Shown here: one piece after another, positions 494 through 10,028 of the stretch
How positions within the stretch are numbered: position 1 is the first letter of the stretch
Layout of the letters: the number at the start of each line of letters is the position of its first letter
Assembly (NCBI GenBank): GCA_013697635.1
Contig: JACCWM010000057.1
Coordinates: 1 to 60,254, forward strand
Reading direction: 5' to 3'
Length of the DNA stretch: 60,254 bases
DNA from: Lujinxingiaceae bacterium
GTDB taxonomy: Bacteria; Myxococcota_A; Bradymonadia; Bradymonadales; Bradymonadaceae
Program-made: the position numbers and the translations under genes
Notes under the pieces: model-generated
Seen by the model: the letters and a program-made list of their open reading frames with translations, nothing else
Databases searched by the model: none
Told to the model about the DNA's origin: nothing

Positions 494-3091
494 CTAGCTG
501 ACGGCCGTCTTGTCGATGCCTGGCTTGTTGGCGTTGTGGGCGTTGCCCGAGCCGGGGGTGGGGCCCTGTGCGCCAGGCTCTTCGACGTCGCCGTTGTCGC
601 GGGCGAGGTCCTTGAGCACTTCGATGATCTCGCTCTTGACGTGGTTTGAGGCCAGGGCGCGTGCGTCGGTGATGTGGCTGACGATCTGGCCGAGCTCGGC
701 GAAGCGCTGCAGATGGTCTTGGAGTGAGACATCCTCCGGGCTGAGCAACAAGAACACCAGGTGGATCGGGTGCTCGGCATGCTCGCGCAGGCTCAAGCCC
801 TTCTCGCTGGTCGCGACGAAGACCAGGGTCTTGAGCACATGGGGGGTGCGCGCGTGAGCCAGGATGACGCCCTGGGAGGCCTCGGTGGTAAAGCCGGTCT
901 GCTCGCTGACCACCGCCGCGGTGACCTCTTTGAGGCGGCGCTCATCGGACTCAAAGCGTGTGGCGAGCATGTAGCTGACGGCCTCCTCGTAGTCGGTTGC
1001 CGGGATGTTCAAGGCGATGCGCTCGGGGCGAAACAGATCCTGGGTCGAGACGCTCGAAGGCAAAGGTGTCAACATGGGCGAGCTCTCCATCTGGGCGGGA
1101 AACAAGAAGACCATGTTTTGGTCGCCCAGCTCGCTGACCTTGCTCGGCAGGCGCTCGAGCTCGGCCGACCAGGCGACCGTGCCCTTTCGCGCGGCCAGAA
1201 AGATCACCAGATCGTTGGCTTCGATGCGCTTGCTCAGTGTCTTGAGCAAGTCCTCGAAGTTGAGAAATCCCACGAAGGTTGAGGTCACCTCGGGCTTGAT
1301 CGCGTCAAAGCGCGAGCGCATGCGCCGCATGTCGTCTTGCAGACACAGGCCCGTGCACAGTGCGCCCAGGGCGTTGGTAATACGCTTGATCGCGCGCACA
1401 GCGAGGATAAAGCCCGGGTGGTGCTCGATATGGGGCGGAAAGACCACGACGACGCGCTGGGTCGTATTGATCGGCTGCTTGAGCCGACAGATGAAGATCT
1501 GCTGTTCGGACTCGTCGAGCAGCTGGTCGGTGATCCGGCCAAAGGTGCCCTTTTGCTGGCTCTCGGGGCCTTGCCAGCCGACGACGACGTCCGAGATGCG
1601 CCGCTCGATGATCGCGCGCGCAATGCCCGTGGCCGGGTTGTGCGCCACCCGGGTGACCGGCACGACGGGCACCTCGGCGCTCGCGCCGTGGATGACGGAG
1701 TTGGAGAGCATCTTCTCGGCGTTGGCCACGCGCAAGGTGGTCTCCTCGTCGTCGGGAACGACCGCCAGCGGGTAGACGGGCTCCTCGCTGCCGTGCTCGC
1801 GCAAGATGAAGGTAAAATCGAGCAGCGAGCGCGCCGTGGCCGCATAAGCCATTGGAATCAGAATGCGCTGGGGTGCCTCGACGGGTGCATCGCCCCTGGC
1901 CTGCTCCTCTTTGATCGCGAGGCGTCGGCCGTATTTTTCGGCCACCATCGGGGCCACAAAGCAGGTCACCGCGATCATCACGATCGTGCCGTTGAGCACG
2001 GCCTCGTTGAACAGCCCGACGTCGTAGGCGACGAGCACCACGGCCAGCGTTGCCGCGGCCTGCGCCACGCTCAGACTGTAGATCACCATGCCTTCTTCCG
2101 GGCTGTAATTGAGGATGCGCTGGGTGATCATGGCGGCGAGCCACTTGGTGCTCAGCGCCGTGAGCACCATGGCCGCGGCGACGATCAGCGCCTCGGTGCC
2201 GGCGAAAAGCACGCGCACGTCGACGAGCATGCCCACCGAGATCAAGAAGAAGGGGATGAACAGCGCGTTGCCGACGAACTCGATGCGGTTCATCAACGTG
2301 CTGCTCTCGGGAATCAGGCGATTGAGCGCGAGCCCGGCCAGGAAGGCCCCGATGATCGCCTCGACGCCGGCCACCTCGGAGAGAAACGCCGCCAAAAACA
2401 CCGCCGCGAGCACGAAGACGTACTCGCGCACGCCCTCGCTGCCCACGATGCGAAAAAACCAGCGGCCGACCTTGGGTAAGCCCCAAAAGAGCAAGAATGT
2501 GTAGATGCTCAGACCGGTGCCCAGCCGAATCCAGAAGGCCGCATCAAGCTCGCCGCGTGTTGCGCCCATGACCACGGCCAGCACGAGCAAGGCCGCGGTG
2601 TCGGTGATGATCGTGCCACCCACGGCGGTGGTCACCGAGCTCGCCTTGGACAGCCCCAGCTTGCTGATCACCGGATAGCCAAGCAGCGTATGCGAGGCGA
2701 ACATGCTGGCGAGCAAGACGGCGACCATGAAGTCAAAACCCAGGATGTAGTAGGCCACCGCCGTTCCCACCGACTGGGGGATGATGAAGGTGATGATCCC
2801 AAAGACGATGCTGTGGTTTTTGTACTTGAGGAAGCGGTTGAGATCGATCTCGAGGCCGGCCGTGAACATGATGTAGAGCAGGCCCACCGTGCCCAGAAGC
2901 CGAAAAGTCTGGTCGCGCTCGAGCAGACCGATGGCGTTGGGGCCGACCACGGCGCCGGCGATCAGCAGACCGATGATCCCGGGCAACTTGAGCTTACCGA
3001 CGAGCATCGGCGCTACAAGAATCATCAGCATGACCAGCGCAAAGGTGAGCACCGGGTCGGTTATCGGGATCTGAAAGTGTGAAGCGTGCAT
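494..3091 (-). CDS. CPA2-type cation/proton antiporter with Usp-like and PTS-IIA-like tail
   Basis: The 865-residue product has about 400 N-terminal residues of hydrophobic helices typical of Kef/CPA2 monovalent cation:proton antiporters, including GIIGLLIAGAVVGPN near residue 40. From about residue 410 the protein is soluble. RILIPMAYAATARSLLDF resembles the start of a universal-stress-protein fold, and residues about 690-830 resemble a PTS EIIA type-2 domain. The motif GVILAHARTPHV keeps the His of the phosphorylatable PHA motif but replaces its Pro with Ala. The start is placed at ATG 3091 because the frame upstream is not protein-like and the helices begin just after. It is divergent from the antiporter operon at 3352. 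Exact ion specificity (K+ or Na+) cannot be read from the sequence. Confidence 0.85.
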   Translation of the reverse strand: MHASHFQIPITDPVLTFALVMLMILVAPMLVGKLKLPGIIGLLIAGAVVGPNAIGLLERDQTFRLLGTVGLLYIMFTAGLEIDLNRFLKYKNHSIVFGIITFIIPQSVGTAVAYYILGFDFMVAVLLASMFASHTLLGYPVISKLGLSKASSVTTAVGGTIITDTAALLVLAVVMGATRGELDAAFWIRLGTGLSIYTFLLFWGLPKVGRWFFRIVGSEGVREYVFVLAAVFLAAFLSEVAGVEAIIGAFLAGLALNRLIPESSTLMNRIEFVGNALFIPFFLISVGMLVDVRVLFAGTEALIVAAAMVLTALSTKWLAAMITQRILNYSPEEGMVIYSLSVAQAAATLAVVLVAYDVGLFNEAVLNGTIVMIAVTCFVAPMVAEKYGRRLAIKEEQARGDAPVEAPQRILIPMAYAATARSLLDFTFILREHGSEEPVYPLAVVPDDEETTLRVANAEKMLSNSVIHGASAEVPVVPVTRVAHNPATGIARAIIERRISDVVVGWQGPESQQKGTFGRITDQLLDESEQQIFICRLKQPINTTQRVVVVFPPHIEHHPGFILAVRAIKRITNALGALCTGLCLQDDMRRMRSRFDAIKPEVTSTFVGFLNFEDLLKTLSKRIEANDLVIFLAARKGTVAWSAELERLPSKVSELGDQNMVFLFPAQMESSPMLTPLPSSVSTQDLFRPERIALNIPATDYEEAVSYMLATRFESDERRLKEVTAAVVSEQTGFTTEASQGVILAHARTPHVLKTLVFVATSEKGLSLREHAEHPIHLVFLLLSPEDVSLQDHLQRFAELGQIVSHITDARALASNHVKSEIIEVLKDLARDNGDVEEPGAQGPTPGSGNAHNANKPGIDKTAVS

Positions 3092-3351
3092 CGATGCCCT
3101 CGTCCAGAGACAGGCCCGCCTGTGGACGCGCCAGGCGGCCACACGGCAAGGGCACGGTTTTTTGTCCCGTTCGCCCAAAGGATGCAATAATGCCCGGGCA
3201 AGCCGCCCGCACGCAAGGGGCTGGGTTGAGAAATAACCTTGACCGCAACACCTTTTTGCAGATTTAGTGAGCCGTTGATCCTTGCGAGAATCTTTCCCAC
3301 TGGCACATCCCAGAGCCGCCAGGGCTGGGCGCGGCCGTGCAATGGAAGATA

Positions 3352-4695
3352 ATGAAACCATTGAACTTAAAGAGCATTTCGCGCCGAGCACTGGGGCCCT
3401 TGCTGGCCTGCGCCTTTGGCGCGCTCTGGGGCGCGCCGGCCTGGGCGGTGACCGCGGATGCCAATGGCGACCAATCCCGCGTGCTGGTGCTTTTGGCCGT
3501 GGTCGCCGGCGCCTACCTGATCTCCTATTTGCTCTTGGGCTGGCTGACGCGCCGCTTTGGCCTGGTCATGGGCGTTCAATACATCCTGCTTGGCATCGCG
3601 ATCGGCCCGGCCTTTAGCGTGCTCGACAGCGCAACGCTGGCAGGCTTCGAGCCCCTGGTGGCGCTGGCTGTGGGCGCCATGGGAATGCTGGCCGGCCTCG
3701 AGTTCAACGTTCGCCGATTGGCCGTCCAGGAGGGCCGCGCGCTCAAGATCGCCTCGCTTGTCACCGTGGCCACGCTCTTGCTCGTCGTGGGTGTGCCCAT
3801 GCTGTTCTTGCACACCCAGCTTGGCGCCGAGAATCTGTGGCGCTGGATGCCGATCGTGTTGGGCATCGGCGCCATCTCACTGGTCGCCGACCCCCGCCAC
3901 CTGGCCGGTCTGCTCAGCTACTTCGAGGTCGACAATCCGGTCTCGGAGCTGGCCAATAACGTCAATTGGCTTTGCACCGTGCTCGCTGTGCTCGTCTTTG
4001 GGATCTTGTTTTGCGCCTACAATCCCGGCACCACAATCCTCGCCGAGCACCTGGGCTGGGTGCAATGGCTGGTGGCCCATATCGCGGTGGGCACGATCTT
4101 GGGCACGATCTGCGGCGCGCTGGTCCAACTTCGCCCCGATGACGAGCGCCTGATGACGATTCTCATCGGCACCGTCGTCTTGGCCAGCGGGCTGGCCTAC
4201 ACGACGACGCTCTCGCTGGTGTTCGTCAATTTCATCGCCGGCTTTGTGATCATCAACATGTCCGACGAAGCGATGCGCGTGCAACGCATGTTCGTCAACC
4301 TCGAGCGTCCGCTGTACGTGATCTTGCTCTTCTTTGTCGGCACGGGCCTGGTCTGGAACGTATCGGTCTGGGTCTATGTGCTCGTGCTCGTTTATCTCGT
4401 GTTGCGCTATCTGGGGCGCTGGGCGGGCGTGATGCTCTATCGCCCCTCGGTCTCGGGATTTCGCCCCGATCCCGGCATTCACCGCGCGCTCTGGGCGCCC
4501 GGCGGACTGTCCGCAGCGATGATCCTCGACTTCTTCGGCGTCTTTGGCGAGGTGCTCTACGCTGATGCAGCGATGACCGGCTTCATTGCCGTCTTGATCG
4601 CCAGCGAGATTGTGGCCTTCATCCTGGCGCGTGGCTGGGTCATCGACATCAGCGACGTCACCTCGGATCGACGCGATCGCAAGCGAGGCCAGTGA
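3352..4695 (+). CDS. Cation/proton antiporter membrane protein
   Basis: A 447-residue, almost entirely hydrophobic protein of the CPA2 antiporter type. It begins with a signal-like segment (LLACAFGALWGAPAWA), followed by about a dozen membrane helices with Gly-rich turns such as MGMLAGLEFNV. It has no RCK/TrkA-N or other large soluble tail, unlike its two neighbours. ATG 3352 is preferred over GTG 3337 because GGAAG lies just upstream, though the spacing is short. The stop codon overlaps the next gene as TGATG at 4693-4697, so the two are probably translationally coupled. It may act with the fusion protein downstream as a two-subunit antiporter; that pairing is inference from the overlap. Confidence 0.78.
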   Translation: MKPLNLKSISRRALGPLLACAFGALWGAPAWAVTADANGDQSRVLVLLAVVAGAYLISYLLLGWLTRRFGLVMGVQYILLGIAIGPAFSVLDSATLAGFEPLVALAVGAMGMLAGLEFNVRRLAVQEGRALKIASLVTVATLLLVVGVPMLFLHTQLGAENLWRWMPIVLGIGAISLVADPRHLAGLLSYFEVDNPVSELANNVNWLCTVLAVLVFGILFCAYNPGTTILAEHLGWVQWLVAHIAVGTILGTICGALVQLRPDDERLMTILIGTVVLASGLAYTTTLSLVFVNFIAGFVIINMSDEAMRVQRMFVNLERPLYVILLFFVGTGLVWNVSVWVYVLVLVYLVLRYLGRWAGVMLYRPSVSGFRPDPGIHRALWAPGGLSAAMILDFFGVFGEVLYADAAMTGFIAVLIASEIVAFILARGWVIDISDVTSDRRDRKRGQ

Positions 4696-7600
4696 TGCGC
4701 CATTTGTTGACCATGGTCATCCTGACTACCCTGATGGGTATTGGGCACTTCCTGGCGAACTCGCACGGCATCGCCTGGTCGTCGGCCCATACGCTGGTGG
4801 CCGTAGGCTTTTTGGTGCTCGTGGCCTTCTCGATTGGCGAGGTCTTTCGCCGGTTCGGGCTGCCGGCGCTGCTGGGCTACATCACGGTGGGCGTCTTGTT
4901 TGGCCCAAGCCTGGCCGCCCAGCTTCCCTTCGAATCTCCGCTGGCGATCATCACGGCCGACGTGCTCGCCGATATGCGTGTGGTCAACGTGCTCGTCGTC
5001 GGCGTGATCGGCATGCTCGCTGGCGGCAAGTTTCGCATCAGCGAGCTGGCCGGCAACGTGCGTCTGCTGCTCGTGCTGACCTTTGCGATCCTGGTGCTCG
5101 TCGTACCGCTCACGGTGGTGAGCGTGCTCGCCCTGGCTCAGCTCTTTCCGCAGTCGCTGAGTTTTGTCGCAGACCTGCCCCTGGCCAGCCAGGTGATCGT
5201 CGCGCTGTTCTTCGGCGTGATCGCCTTTGGACTTAGCCCGAGCACCACGGTCGCGGTGATCCAGGAGCTGCGCGCGCGCGGGCCGCTCTCCACGGTCGTT
5301 TTGGGCGTCGTCTTGCTTGGCGAGGTGGTGCTCTTCGCCGTCTTTGCGCTCCTGCTGGCCGTCTCGCGCTATGTGCTCGGCCCGGAGGTCGTGACTTTTG
5401 GCCTGATCGCAAGCCATGTGCCGATCGTGTTCATCGATCTGGCGCTGGCCATCTTGCTGGGCGCAAGCGTGGGCATCCTCTCGGTGCTCTATTTGACCTA
5501 TGTCAAAAAGGAGCCCCTGCTCTTTACGCTGGTCGTCATCTTCGTGGCCTACTATGCCGCCTGGGCTCTGGGCGCCGAGGCACTGCTCACCTTTCTGGTC
5601 GCCGGCTTCTTTGTTCAAAACGCCTCCTCGCAGGGCGACGAGTTGGTGCGCTCGCTCGAGCGCATCGGCATGCCCGTCTTCGTCGTCTATTTTGCGCTGG
5701 TCGCAGCACAGCTCGATCTGGAGGCCGCCGCCGGCTACCTGCCCCTGGTGCTGGGCTTGATCTTTGCGCGCGTGGTTGGCCTTCATTTCGCCACGCGCCT
5801 GGCTGCACGAAAAGCCCTGGAGACCAACCGCTCCTACGACTTTCTGCACGTCACCTTCCTCGCTCAAGACGCCGTGGTGCTCGTGCTGGCCGGCGTGGTT
5901 GCCGCGAATTTCCCAGGCTGGGGCGCAGACTTTCAAAACGTGATCATGGCCACGGTCATCGCCTATCTCATCGGCGGCCCGATCTTGCTCAAGCTGGCCC
6001 TGGACCGCGCCGGCGAGACCCAGGGTGCGCGCCGGCGCATCATCGAAGAGATGGAATACCGCGTCGAGGACAGCGAGGGGGCAGTCGATCTCGATCTGCA
6101 AGCCCAGCTTCCCGATCCCGACTTCGCCGACGCCTGGCTGCGCGGTCGCATCGAGGATCTCAAAGAGGCCTTGATCGAGCTCGACGGCCAATGGGTGCGC
6201 ACACCGCTCTTGGAGCAGCGTGACCACCTGCTGAGTTTTTTGGCCGAGGTACACACCTCATTTGACGAGGTCGTCGAACGCCTCCATACCCACCTCACCG
6301 CCGGCCAGGCCAACGACCATCTCGAGGCGATGCCAGAGCTCGTATGGGAGCTGCAAAAGCGCTTGACCAGCCGCTTGCACCCGCTGCTCGAGAACCTGCT
6401 CGCAAAGCCCAGCGTGGCCGTGCCGGCGAGCTCGATGGAGGCCTTCCTCGAGGCGATTCGCTCGCTCGAGGATACCCAGAGCATCTACAAGGTCGAGCGT
6501 GAGCAGGAGCTCGTCGAGAGTCGAGCCGATGACGGTCGCCTGCTCGACTTCGTCAAGCGCTTGCGCCGCGTGCGCCGACGGCTGCGAGGACCGGGCTATC
6601 GCAGCGTGCCGCTGGGACGGCTCTGGCGCTATTATGTGGAGCTTGCGCTGCCGACAAGCTTTGCGCGCGATACACCCCAGCTTGCCATCCAGCACGAGCT
6701 GTTCTGGCGTGAGATGTGGCGCCATTTGAAGCTGCTCGACGCCTTGTTTGGCGATCTCAATCGCGCGCTCGCGGCCCCGGCGCCCGAGGTCGCGCCCGAT
6801 CTTGTCGTCCCCAACGACTCCGATGACGACGAGTCCCTCGCTGCGGCGTCAACGACGATCGCCGCGCCAACGCCCAAGAACGCCCGCATCAAGCAGCACC
6901 TCGACGAGTTTAGTGCGACCACCCAGGAGCGCCATGACGAACTCGTCGATCTGCTCAATCGCTCGACCGAGGTCGCCTTGCACCGCTATGGGCGCGGTGT
7001 CGCGCGCGCCTACACGGCCTTTCTAGGCGGCGCGGCGCGCGCTGGAACCAGCGAGCTGCCCGCCTTTCGCTACCGTCCGGCGACGCGCTTCGATCAAGCG
7101 CGTCGCGCCGAGGCGCGCATCACCGAGCGCCTCGCGCGCCAGTTGAACACCGTTGCAGGCTACCGCGGCTGGATTCTACTCGATCACGAGCGCGCGCTCT
7201 TCGTGCAGTGGTTCCAGCTCTACAAGATGCGGGTGGGCCGCGTCGCCCACAGCCTCGTGGAGAGTCGCGGCCAGCACGAGCTCGACGAGCTCGGTGCACG
7301 CTGTCAGGCGGCGACCCGTCAGGCCGGCGCCGACTGGCCGGCGATCTTCGAGGAGCAGCTTCGACCCTTGCTCATCGCCCATCGGCGCACCGTGGAGAAT
7401 GCGCTCTCCCAGCTTCACCAGGGCGTCGGTACCCGCGTGCTCATTGACATCGTTGAGGCCCGCGTTGCCCGTCTGCCAATGATCATCGACGTGCTCGCTC
7501 AGGAATCCGAGCGCACGATCGTGTCGGCGTCGAGCTTCGCGCTGCCGCTTCGCCACTGGGTCGTCACTCGGCTCAGCCGCGAGTTGGCGCTTCGCTTTGT

Positions 7601-9245
7601 CGAGTTCAATGAGCGCGGCGGCGCGATCCTGATCGCCCACCTCAACGCGCTGGAAAACGTCGCCCAGATCCTCGAGTTCAACCTGCTCACGGCTGGCCGA
7701 GATCGCTCCAGCGACGCCAGCGAAGCAAACAGCTTCGCGACCAACGGGCTCGAGCGCGCTCAAAAGCTCGTGACCCAGGCCCAGAACCAGCTTCGCCACG
7801 ACGGCGCCGAGTTCGAGGCATGGATCCAACGCGAGATCGACGCCATCGCGCGCGCCACCTTCTCGCCGCTCATTGAGCGCCGCCTGGGCGAGATTCAGCG
7901 CGAATTGGCCCGCTTTGAGGCCTCCTCCTTCATCGCACGCGGCGAAAACTGGGCCAGCGAGTATCTGCGGCCGCTGGCCCGGCGCCTGCGCACCACCGGA
8001 GAGCACACCCGAGGCTATTGGAACGAAATCCTCGCCGATTTGCGCACGATGCTCGGACGCGAGGAAAAGATCGCCCAGCGCATCGACATCCGCGAGCGCC
8101 TCTACGCCGGTGAGCCGGCCGTCTCCTCGCTTGCGCCATCGATCTACCGGCGCCTCTTTACCCCCGTGCCGCTGGACATCCCGGACTTCTACGTGGCGCG
8201 GCCCCAGATCGAGCAGCGCTGCATGGAGGCCATCGCCCAGTGGTTCGAGGGCAGCCAACACAGCATCTTGATCACGGGCAACCGCGGCCTGGGCAAGCGC
8301 ACCCTGGTTCATCATCTCGTGCCCACGGGCATCTACGGCGTCTACAGCGAGCTTGCCGACGATCAATTCATGACCATCCGTCTCTCGGAGCACATCCGCA
8401 CTGAAGGCGACCTCTGCCGCCAGCTGGCCCCCCTGCTCGGCGGCGAGAGCGAGGCTGTGCTCGACGATCTCGACAGCTTCGCCGCCCGGCTGGCCGAGCG
8501 CAGCGGCCAGCGCCGCATCGTGATCATTGAAAACGGCGAGAAGATCTACACGCGCACCTCGGCCGGGCTGGCCATGTGCCGGCGTTTCTTGCGCATGGTA
8601 TCGAGCACCAGCCACCACACGCTCTGGATCGTGGTCATGGGCACGCCGGCCGCAACCCTGCTTGAGAGCATGGTCGGGCTGCACGACTACTTCACCCACA
8701 GCCTGGCGATCGAGCCGCTCACGAGCTCCGAGATCGAACAGATGATCATGGCCCGCCATCAGGTCAGCGGTTATATGCTGGACTTCCAGCCGCGCCAGTT
8801 GGGCCGGCTGCAGCGTCTGCGCAGACCCTTTTTGGGCACGACCGTGCGCCAACCACCCAGCGAATTCTTCGAGCTGCTCACCGAGCAGTGCCACGGCAAC
8901 CCGCACCTGGCCCTGCTCTACTGGCTGCGCGCGATCGCCCTCGACCCACTCGACGACATGCGCATCAGCGTCATGGCGCTGCATGCCCAGAATCTCCACC
9001 TGATCGACGAACTCTCACTGATCAAGAAGCTCATTTTGGCGCTGCTCGCTCAACACGGATCGCTGACACCTCTGCAGTTGCACCAGGTCATTCACCATTC
9101 TCTCGATGAGATCCACGTCGAGCTCGAACACCTGGCTCGGCTGGGTTTTGTGGAAATCTTGGCCGAAACCCTGGAGAATTACCGCCTGCGCGCCCTGGCC
9201 GCCCCGCTCGTCACCCACGAGCTCGGACAACGAAACCTGATCTAG
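4695..9245 (+). CDS. Antiporter / long helical region / P-loop NTPase fusion protein
   Basis: A 1516-residue protein. Residues 1 to about 415 are a CPA2-like antiporter membrane domain (FRRFGLPALLGYITVGVLFG near residue 55). Residues about 430-1130 are hydrophilic, Leu/Glu/Arg-rich and predicted mainly helical or coiled coil. Residues about 1165-1400 form a P-loop NTPase: Walker A GNRGLGKRT near 1195, and a Walker B-like strand RRIVIIEN near 1275 in which Glu-Asn replaces the usual Asp-Asp/Glu. A sensor-like LWIVVMGTP and a CHGNPHLALLYWL helix follow, as in STAND/AAA ATPases. The last 80 residues look like a winged helix (LTPLQLHQVIHHSLDEI). The ATG overlaps the upstream stop; GTG 4692 is an alternative start. 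I know of no characterised protein with this architecture. Confidence 0.82.
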   Translation: MRHLLTMVILTTLMGIGHFLANSHGIAWSSAHTLVAVGFLVLVAFSIGEVFRRFGLPALLGYITVGVLFGPSLAAQLPFESPLAIITADVLADMRVVNVLVVGVIGMLAGGKFRISELAGNVRLLLVLTFAILVLVVPLTVVSVLALAQLFPQSLSFVADLPLASQVIVALFFGVIAFGLSPSTTVAVIQELRARGPLSTVVLGVVLLGEVVLFAVFALLLAVSRYVLGPEVVTFGLIASHVPIVFIDLALAILLGASVGILSVLYLTYVKKEPLLFTLVVIFVAYYAAWALGAEALLTFLVAGFFVQNASSQGDELVRSLERIGMPVFVVYFALVAAQLDLEAAAGYLPLVLGLIFARVVGLHFATRLAARKALETNRSYDFLHVTFLAQDAVVLVLAGVVAANFPGWGADFQNVIMATVIAYLIGGPILLKLALDRAGETQGARRRIIEEMEYRVEDSEGAVDLDLQAQLPDPDFADAWLRGRIEDLKEALIELDGQWVRTPLLEQRDHLLSFLAEVHTSFDEVVERLHTHLTAGQANDHLEAMPELVWELQKRLTSRLHPLLENLLAKPSVAVPASSMEAFLEAIRSLEDTQSIYKVEREQELVESRADDGRLLDFVKRLRRVRRRLRGPGYRSVPLGRLWRYYVELALPTSFARDTPQLAIQHELFWREMWRHLKLLDALFGDLNRALAAPAPEVAPDLVVPNDSDDDESLAAASTTIAAPTPKNARIKQHLDEFSATTQERHDELVDLLNRSTEVALHRYGRGVARAYTAFLGGAARAGTSELPAFRYRPATRFDQARRAEARITERLARQLNTVAGYRGWILLDHERALFVQWFQLYKMRVGRVAHSLVESRGQHELDELGARCQAATRQAGADWPAIFEEQLRPLLIAHRRTVENALSQLHQGVGTRVLIDIVEARVARLPMIIDVLAQESERTIVSASSFALPLRHWVVTRLSRELALRFVEFNERGGAILIAHLNALENVAQILEFNLLTAGRDRSSDASEANSFATNGLERAQKLVTQAQNQLRHDGAEFEAWIQREIDAIARATFSPLIERRLGEIQRELARFEASSFIARGENWASEYLRPLARRLRTTGEHTRGYWNEILADLRTMLGREEKIAQRIDIRERLYAGEPAVSSLAPSIYRRLFTPVPLDIPDFYVARPQIEQRCMEAIAQWFEGSQHSILITGNRGLGKRTLVHHLVPTGIYGVYSELADDQFMTIRLSEHIRTEGDLCRQLAPLLGGESEAVLDDLDSFAARLAERSGQRRIVIIENGEKIYTRTSAGLAMCRRFLRMVSSTSHHTLWIVVMGTPAATLLESMVGLHDYFTHSLAIEPLTSSEIEQMIMARHQVSGYMLDFQPRQLGRLQRLRRPFLGTTVRQPPSEFFELLTEQCHGNPHLALLYWLRAIALDPLDDMRISVMALHAQNLHLIDELSLIKKLILALLAQHGSLTPLQLHQVIHHSLDEIHVELEHLARLGFVEILAETLENYRLRALAAPLVTHELGQRNLI

Positions 9246-9257
9246 AGCGAGCCCGCC

Positions 9258-10028
9258 ATGACCGATCCAAGCCTGACCGCCTCGCATCCGACCTACGTGA
9301 TCTTGTTGTTGTTGGTCCTTGCCGTGCTGATCACCCGTTTCTTGGCGCTGCTCGGGCGCATGGAGGGCGCGCACCGGCTTCGCCGCTGGCTGCCGCTGCT
9401 CTTTGTCGTGGTCTGGACCACGGTGCTGGCCACCAGCGCCCTCGCTTTTGCCAGCGACGGCCTTCAAATGCAGCTGGTGCTCGTGCTCTTCTTTCTTACC
9501 GTCGCCGTGGCGGCATCGCTGGGGTGGCTGCGAAGCCTGGTTGCCGGGATCGTGCTCATCTGGGAGCAGCGCATCCATATCGGCGACAGCATCCGCGCTG
9601 GCGACGTCCAGGGCGAGGTCGTCGCGATCGGCATGCGATCTGTGCGTGTTCGCGACCCCGACGGCGTCTTGCATGAGCTTCCCCATGAACTGCTCATGAA
9701 CCAACCGCTGGCCACACACTCGCGCTCCGGCGAGGTGGTCTGCGACATCGCATTTGTGATTCCCAACTCGATCAACCCCGAACGTGCCCTCGAATTGGCG
9801 CGCGAAGCCGCATCGTTGACGCCGCTGGCCTCACCGCGCCACCGCCCGGAAGCCTTCATGCTCGACGAATCCGGCCCGGGCCAGCCCATCCGCTGCAGCG
9901 TGCGGGGCTACGCGTTTTCGCCCCAGTACCGTGATCACTACCGAAGCGACGTGCTCGCCCGCCTTCACCTCGCGCTGCGTCCTCTGGAGGCTGAGATTCA
10001 GTCCAACATTGCACTAATTGAAGAGTAG
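9258..10028 (+). CDS. MscS-family mechanosensitive channel
   Basis: A 256-residue protein with three or four N-terminal membrane helices, a pore-like helix (AVAASLGWLRSLVAGIVL) and the MscS beta-domain signature GDSIRAGDVQGEVVAIGMRS followed by VRVRDPDGVLHELPHELLM. The length is close to E. coli MscS (286). It starts 12 bases after the antiporter-NTPase gene, so it is almost certainly in the same operon. MscS channels open under membrane tension and release ions during hypo-osmotic shock. Linkage to two antiporters therefore suggests a shared role in turgor or ion balance. Confidence 0.88.
   Translation: MTDPSLTASHPTYVILLLLVLAVLITRFLALLGRMEGAHRLRRWLPLLFVVVWTTVLATSALAFASDGLQMQLVLVLFFLTVAVAASLGWLRSLVAGIVLIWEQRIHIGDSIRAGDVQGEVVAIGMRSVRVRDPDGVLHELPHELLMNQPLATHSRSGEVVCDIAFVIPNSINPERALELAREAASLTPLASPRHRPEAFMLDESGPGQPIRCSVRGYAFSPQYRDHYRSDVLARLHLALRPLEAEIQSNIALIEE

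Follow-up and report, generated by a model that had tools for sequence, protein, structure and literature searches.

The window analysed here comprises positions 1 to 60,254 of contig JACCWM010000057.1 (forward strand) from assembly GCA_013697635.1 of a Lujinxingiaceae bacterium, a member of the Bradymonadales in the Myxococcota. Near its start lies a three-gene operon, the middle gene of which encodes a protein of 1516 residues where an antiporter membrane domain, a long helical region, an AAA+ nucleoside triphosphatase (NTPase) and a winged helix follow one another in a single frame. This fusion is preceded by the gene for an antiporter paralogue that lacks the acidic residue needed for transport (hereafter acid-less) and followed by the gene for an MscS-family channel. 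The features of the locus, in window positions, are the following:

4695..9245, + strand, fusion protein of 1516 residues: antiporter domain, helical region, AAA+ NTPase, winged helix
4782..6029, + strand, antiporter domain, residues ~30-445 (PF00999, AlphaFold model, VIA-align)
6030..8123, + strand, cytosolic helical region, residues 446-1143 (long helices in the AlphaFold model)
8124..9014, + strand, ORC/Cdc6-type AAA+ NTPase (AAA_22, structural matches, motif counts)
8277-8303, + strand, Walker A motif GNRGLGKRT, residues 1195-1203
8511-8534, + strand, Walker B motif RRIVIIEN, residues 1273-1280
9015..9242, + strand, C-terminal winged-helix domain, last 76 residues (secondary structure in the AlphaFold model)
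9258..10028, + strand, MscS-family channel protein of 256 residues (PF00924, profile matches)
3337..4695, + strand, membrane protein of 452 residues with a signal-peptide-like N-terminus, the acid-less antiporter paralogue
494..3391, - strand, divergent neighbour: CPA2-type exchanger with Usp and PTS EIIA-2 domains

The frame at 4695-9245 is open across all 1516 residues, as an initial annotation made from the sequence alone had proposed. Full-length homologues with 33-42% identity were found in 13 other, independently assembled genomes of the family of the host, some of them in single-contig genomes, and shorter or more diverged relatives were present elsewhere in its class. An alignment-based scan of genome contigs, in which a single-sequence scan had given no match, recovered a homologue in the isolate Lujinxingia vulgaris TMQ2, its contig ending inside the gene. 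As the full-length architecture recurs in many independent assemblies, the frame is neither a chance opening nor an assembly join, and an assembly artefact, which the initial annotation had named as one of two outcomes that would undo its claim, was ruled out. In two antiporter-NTPase fusions from other loci (L127:4748-10456 and L129:5135-10903), 400-500 additional residues lie ahead of the antiporter domain.

Domains of the fusion protein

The membrane part was matched by the Pfam family Na_H_Exchanger (PF00999) over residues 43-428, with an E-value of 3.3e-12 and 46.4 bits against a curated cut-off of 26.2, and the same family matched 12 of the 14 members of the antiporter family of the fusion. 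The AlphaFold model of residues 1-700, built from 16 sequences, had a mean predicted local distance difference test (pLDDT) of 77.9 and contained the two crossed discontinuous helices of the NhaA-type fold, with breaks at 177/182 and 387/393. When compared by VIA-align, this model was closest to NapA (Z 33.6, root-mean-square deviation (rmsd) 3.7 over 377 residues), followed by MjNhaP1 (31.1), SOS1 and SLC9C1 (both ~31) and KefC (25.6), while a sequence profile of the antiporter part gave no match to solved structures. The acid in transmembrane helix 5 (TM5) is E210 (nucleotides 5322-5324), equated with Asp157 of NapA from sequence context and not from residue-level superposition. Among 39 antiporter-fusion sequences this position was D in 30, E in eight and N in one, and R359 was invariant (39/39).

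The initial annotation had called this part a CPA2 (cation-proton antiporter 2) domain. Its identity as an antiporter stood, but its assignment to CPA2 rather than CPA1 was not established, as the CPA2 model TIGR00932 gave no match to the fusion, nor did other antiporter models of NCBIfam, and the predicted structure resembled CPA1- and CPA2-type structures alike. The absence of the RCK (KTN) domain was confirmed by the Pfam scan, the fusion having an AAA+ NTPase instead. Genes for relatives of this antiporter that are not joined to an NTPase were seen at L059:9023-11772, where they form a tandem pair, and also at L058 and L060; these genes possibly represent the ancestral state.

For the remainder of the protein, residues 446-1516 were modelled from 15 sequences with a mean pLDDT of 79.7 and a predicted template-modelling score (pTM) of 0.52, a value so low that the arrangement of the domains in this model is not reliable. 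Residues 446-1143 were almost purely helical, in agreement with the ~700 helical residues noticed initially between antiporter and NTPase. This region is conserved within the fusion class but was only weakly detectable in two relatives with an SLC12-type membrane part (see below).

Beyond the helical region, Pfam detected AAA_22 on residues 1187-1319 (E 1.5e-6, above the curated cut-off), and the segment 699-1046 of the model (residues 1144-1491 of the protein) matched ORC1, Cdc6 and ORC2 with a VIA Z of ~16, the best-fitting ORC/Cdc6 structures superposing with an rmsd of 3.4-3.5 over ~245-256 residues. Foldseek related the NTPase model to ORC/Cdc6-type structures with E-values of ~1e-6. TnsC, the D2 domain of NSF, RuvB, CED-4 and plant NB-ARC receptors were also among the structural matches, and STAND/NB-ARC structures ranked below the ORC/Cdc6-type AAA+ ATPases. 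The score of the fusion against the Pfam model nSTAND6 was 18.8 bits, under the cut-off of 27.7, and some relatives exceeded the cut-off of NACHT. As in ORC/Cdc6-like proteins, the AAA+ core has both Walker motifs and is accompanied by a lid and a winged helix. Thus, the P-loop region does have a predicted NTPase fold, and the former label of "STAND/AAA-like NTPase" was correct but broad, the closest structures being of the ORC/Cdc6 type.

The P-loop GNRGLGKRT lies within this fold, and its Walker A lysine was kept in 56 of 75 NTPase sequences of the wider family. At the position of the Walker B acid (1279, E in the fusion) 72 of 74 sequences had D or E, whereas the second acid that may follow it was present in only 30 of 74, so that the atypical Walker B pointed out in the initial annotation proved to be a family feature; R1354, in the lid, was kept in 73 of the 74. 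The rarity of the second acid is compatible with slow switching, and the motifs as a whole would fit a nucleotide-binding switch with slow hydrolysis, or with none in some members. At L043:4894-9426 and L086:4894-9426 the Walker A motif of the fusion is destroyed (GEPGHPPAS), the gene standing in tandem with a neighbouring NTPase and MscS pair.

The possible winged-helix end was likewise borne out by the AlphaFold model and by the match to ORC/Cdc6-type proteins, and weak profile matches to ArsR/MarR-type winged helices were obtained. Its net charge is -2 in the fusion, which makes binding to an origin or to DNA unlikely, and ranges from -7 to +7 among relatives without being uniformly basic; a role as a DNA-binding regulator was disfavoured on this ground.

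The MscS gene and the wider NTPase family

The genes of the operon are separated by short gaps or share a few bases: the MscS gene starts 12 bases past the stop codon of the fusion, and the paralogue gene ends in TGATG, where its stop codon overlaps the start codon of the fusion. PF00924 was detected in the third gene with an E-value of 8.7e-15 (55 bits, cut-off 20.2), and the profile of its family matched MscM, MscK and MscS structures with E-values from 1e-19 to 1e-15. Hydrophobic helices precede this domain, and the beta domain and a pore helix, as in the MscS superfamily, were both recognised. A search for proteins of the same architecture and their gene neighbours, as advised in the initial annotation, returned homologues across the family with an MscS gene as recurrent neighbour. 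The order paralogue-fusion-MscS is repeated across the family of the host and more loosely across its order and phylum, with genes intervening between paralogue and fusion in several distant members.

The operon had escaped the initial annotation, and its association with MscS extends well beyond the fusion. A profile of the NTPase part, used with an E-value threshold of 1e-8 on 379 sampled Myxococcota genomes, detected the family in 135 of them. Neighbourhoods were selected by frame length and by the room left on the contig, irrespective of the neighbours, and an MscS-domain gene lay directly downstream on the same strand of 68 of the 75 NTPase genes examined; of the seven exceptions, three lie where the contig ends and two are followed by an MscS gene at a distance of 2-3.5 kb. 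The genome of the window contains only eight MscS-domain genes in 6.2 Mb, so that such neighbours are far more frequent than chance would give; the two NTPase-family genes found in this genome each adjoin one. Distances among the NTPases also correlated with those among the MscS proteins (Spearman 0.64, shuffled maximum 0.13), a figure that common ancestry inflates.

What stays constant in this family is the pair of NTPase and MscS, whereas the helical and NTPase parts are preceded by front ends of four kinds. The first is the antiporter of the fusion, with the acid-less paralogue upstream. The second is of the SLC12/amino-acid-permease type and was found at L125, L131, L132 and L136, followed by the MscS gene; PF00324 matched such front ends at four loci with E-values of 1e-40 to 1e-42 and an SLC12 domain was matched at one (E 1.4e-4). 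The third, in proteins of ~1100-1250 residues, consists of a signal peptide, a long coiled coil and membrane helices, and includes a second pair in the genome of the window (G000:C148; L061:7906-12267, - strand), where an NTPase protein of 1114 residues is followed by an MscS gene. Homology of this front end to MscK was considered and rejected, the layout alone being alike, with no profile match to MscK or MscM. The fourth front end is made of soluble helices (L064, L144). The pairing of NTPase and MscS persists despite a complete change of the front end.

The paralogue encoded ahead of the fusion was related to it by hhalign of the two families (probability 97.6, E 4.2e-12). PF00999 matched two of 16 members of the paralogue family, and the profile of this family gave no match against solved structures. 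A conserved D or E was absent from the TM5 site in its 41 sequences, and the protein is therefore most likely a non-transporting paralogue. CPA antiporters function as dimers and, by analogy, a hetero-dimer of paralogue and fusion is possible.

The divergent gene at 494..3391 probably stands outside the operon, although exchanger genes of this type often adjoin the operon within the same family. A 42-base tandem repeat of ~6 copies occupies positions 159-443 of the window and overlaps the end of the neighbourhood of this antisense antiporter gene.

Possible function of the operon

Judged from gene order, folds and conserved motifs, it is about an even chance that the operon is an ion-homeostasis module in which the NTPase acts as a switch coupling the antiporter front end to the MscS channel. 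The antiporter domain would exchange a cation (Na+ or K+) for protons, with the acid-less paralogue probably paired to it as a regulatory or structural partner, and the helical region would connect it to the ORC/Cdc6-like NTPase. The latter would serve as a slow nucleotide-dependent switch that relays the front end's state to the neighbouring channel, presumably by contact with it, and ion exchange and channel opening might thereby be coordinated during osmotic or ionic change. A more ambitious version, which we put forward tentatively as somewhat less probable than the first, is that of a modular machine in which the NTPase gates the MscS channel according to the state of whichever front end it carries (a hetero-pair of antiporters, a cotransporter of SLC12 type, a sensor in the periplasm or soluble helices), joining transport, nucleotide state and emergency solute release in one complex.

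The ionic or osmotic interpretation is favoured because of the identities of the front ends, the near-universal presence of the system in a mainly saline lineage (PMC7460792), whose named relatives include Lujinxingia vulgaris, and the second antiporter that often adjoins the operon. A nucleotide-driven switch on ion flux had also been the proposal of the initial annotation; of the two roles suggested there, control of osmotic state or of ions agrees better with these observations than ion leakage triggered by infection. Several observations weigh against a coupled switch. The Walker A lysine is replaced by R in 17 of the 75 sequences and by neither K nor R in two, so that some members may no longer hydrolyse the nucleotide. 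At L051:7753-11805 a fusion has lost the antiporter acid while keeping the NTPase motifs and the MscS gene, and transport may consequently not be essential. Finally, at L039 and L126 no MscS gene lies nearby.

Among the alternatives, the one that survives best, though unlikely, is that the NTPase is a factor for the assembly, localisation or turnover of channel and transporter instead of a gating switch. The closest folds do include remodelling AAA+ proteins (ORC/Cdc6, TnsC, NSF D2, RuvB), and the adjacency of the genes makes co-translation probable; however, a permanent fusion to a transporter and the rarity of the full catalytic acid pair suit a switch better than a processive remodeller.

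A somewhat less probable explanation is an anti-phage or programmed-death system, in which the NTPase would sense infection and open the MscS channel or the antiporter, so that the cell is depolarised. Defence systems often contain NTPases of the ORC/STAND clade, NACHT or nSTAND models match several members of the family, and a variable front end combined with a constant NTPase-effector pair is reminiscent of sensor-switch-effector logic. However, the distribution is not patchy, 20 of the 21 genomes from the family of the host carrying the system (one of them in a degenerate form), and its distances partly tracked those of YchF, a housekeeping gene (Spearman 0.50, shuffled maximum 0.31). Searches against plasmids and phages gave no matches, PADLOC, which covers systems described up to 2023, gave weak matches only (best E-value 0.0077), and the front ends are ion transporters rather than recognisable pathogen sensors. 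In two comparative surveys of STAND conflict systems, a word search found no MscS, mechanosensitive channel or antiporter.

It is improbable that the transporter is a sensor (transceptor) from which the NTPase and winged helix signal to DNA or to a regulator, the MscS gene being merely co-regulated: an ORC/Cdc6-like fold ending in a winged helix would suit this role, but the charge of the winged helix does not, and the NTPase-MscS pairing survives the exchange of the front end. Equally improbable is an ordinary antiporter with a large autoinhibitory tail and a vestigial NTPase, for which the high ranking of SOS1 and SLC9C1, also endowed with large cytosolic regulatory parts, and the missing Walker A lysine of some members could be invoked, but which disagrees with the nucleotide-site motifs kept in most members, even in those without any antiporter, and leaves the MscS pairing unexplained.

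The management of ion content and cell volume is a task shared by antiporters, SLC12-type cotransporters and mechanosensitive channels. If the operon is indeed an ion-homeostasis module, it would provide a switch, open to direct testing, between the uptake or exchange of ions and the release of solutes, an initiator-type AAA+ ATPase would be employed in the control of membrane transport, and large proteins that have only generic domain matches in family libraries would gain a function. The fusion appears widespread in the Bradymonadales, a saline and predatory group, and the pair of NTPase and MscS in a large part of the Myxococcota.

Comparison with known systems

Every part of the operon falls in a known superfamily, and it is the fusion and the NTPase-MscS pair for which no earlier description was found; the literature search had incomplete coverage, and absence from it is weak evidence. 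To our knowledge, no other NTPase family of bacteria is known to link differing transporter groups to the same type of channel.

With NapA, NhaP and KefC the fusion shares the membrane fold, the two discontinuous helices and the conserved acid and arginine, but it has no RCK/KTN domain and carries instead a cytosolic part of ~1070 residues with an AAA+ NTPase at its end, and its operon adds an acid-less paralogue and an MscS gene. SOS1 and SLC9C1 resemble it in having an antiporter fold followed by a large cytosolic regulatory part. In those two proteins the regulatory part holds cyclic-nucleotide-binding-like domains, whereas that of the fusion is an AAA+ NTPase and an MscS gene adjoins.

The AAA+ core, lid and winged helix are common to the fusion and to ORC1/Cdc6-type ATPases, as well as to TnsC and, further off, to NB-ARC proteins and CED-4. 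Unlike ORC1/Cdc6, the fusion is membrane-tethered, its winged helix is not uniformly basic, it has E at the Walker B position and it shows no link to replication.

The third gene belongs to the MscS superfamily together with MscS, MscK and MscM, and the relatives of 1100 residues are MscK-like in layout, with a signal peptide, periplasmic helices and membrane helices, but split from the channel, which is here a separate gene paired with the NTPase gene. The cyclic-nucleotide-gated MscS channels (bCNG) are an earlier example of an MscS-family channel on which a nucleotide acts; in them the cyclic-nucleotide-binding domain is fused to the channel, whereas in the present operon the NTPase paired with the channel is a protein of its own.

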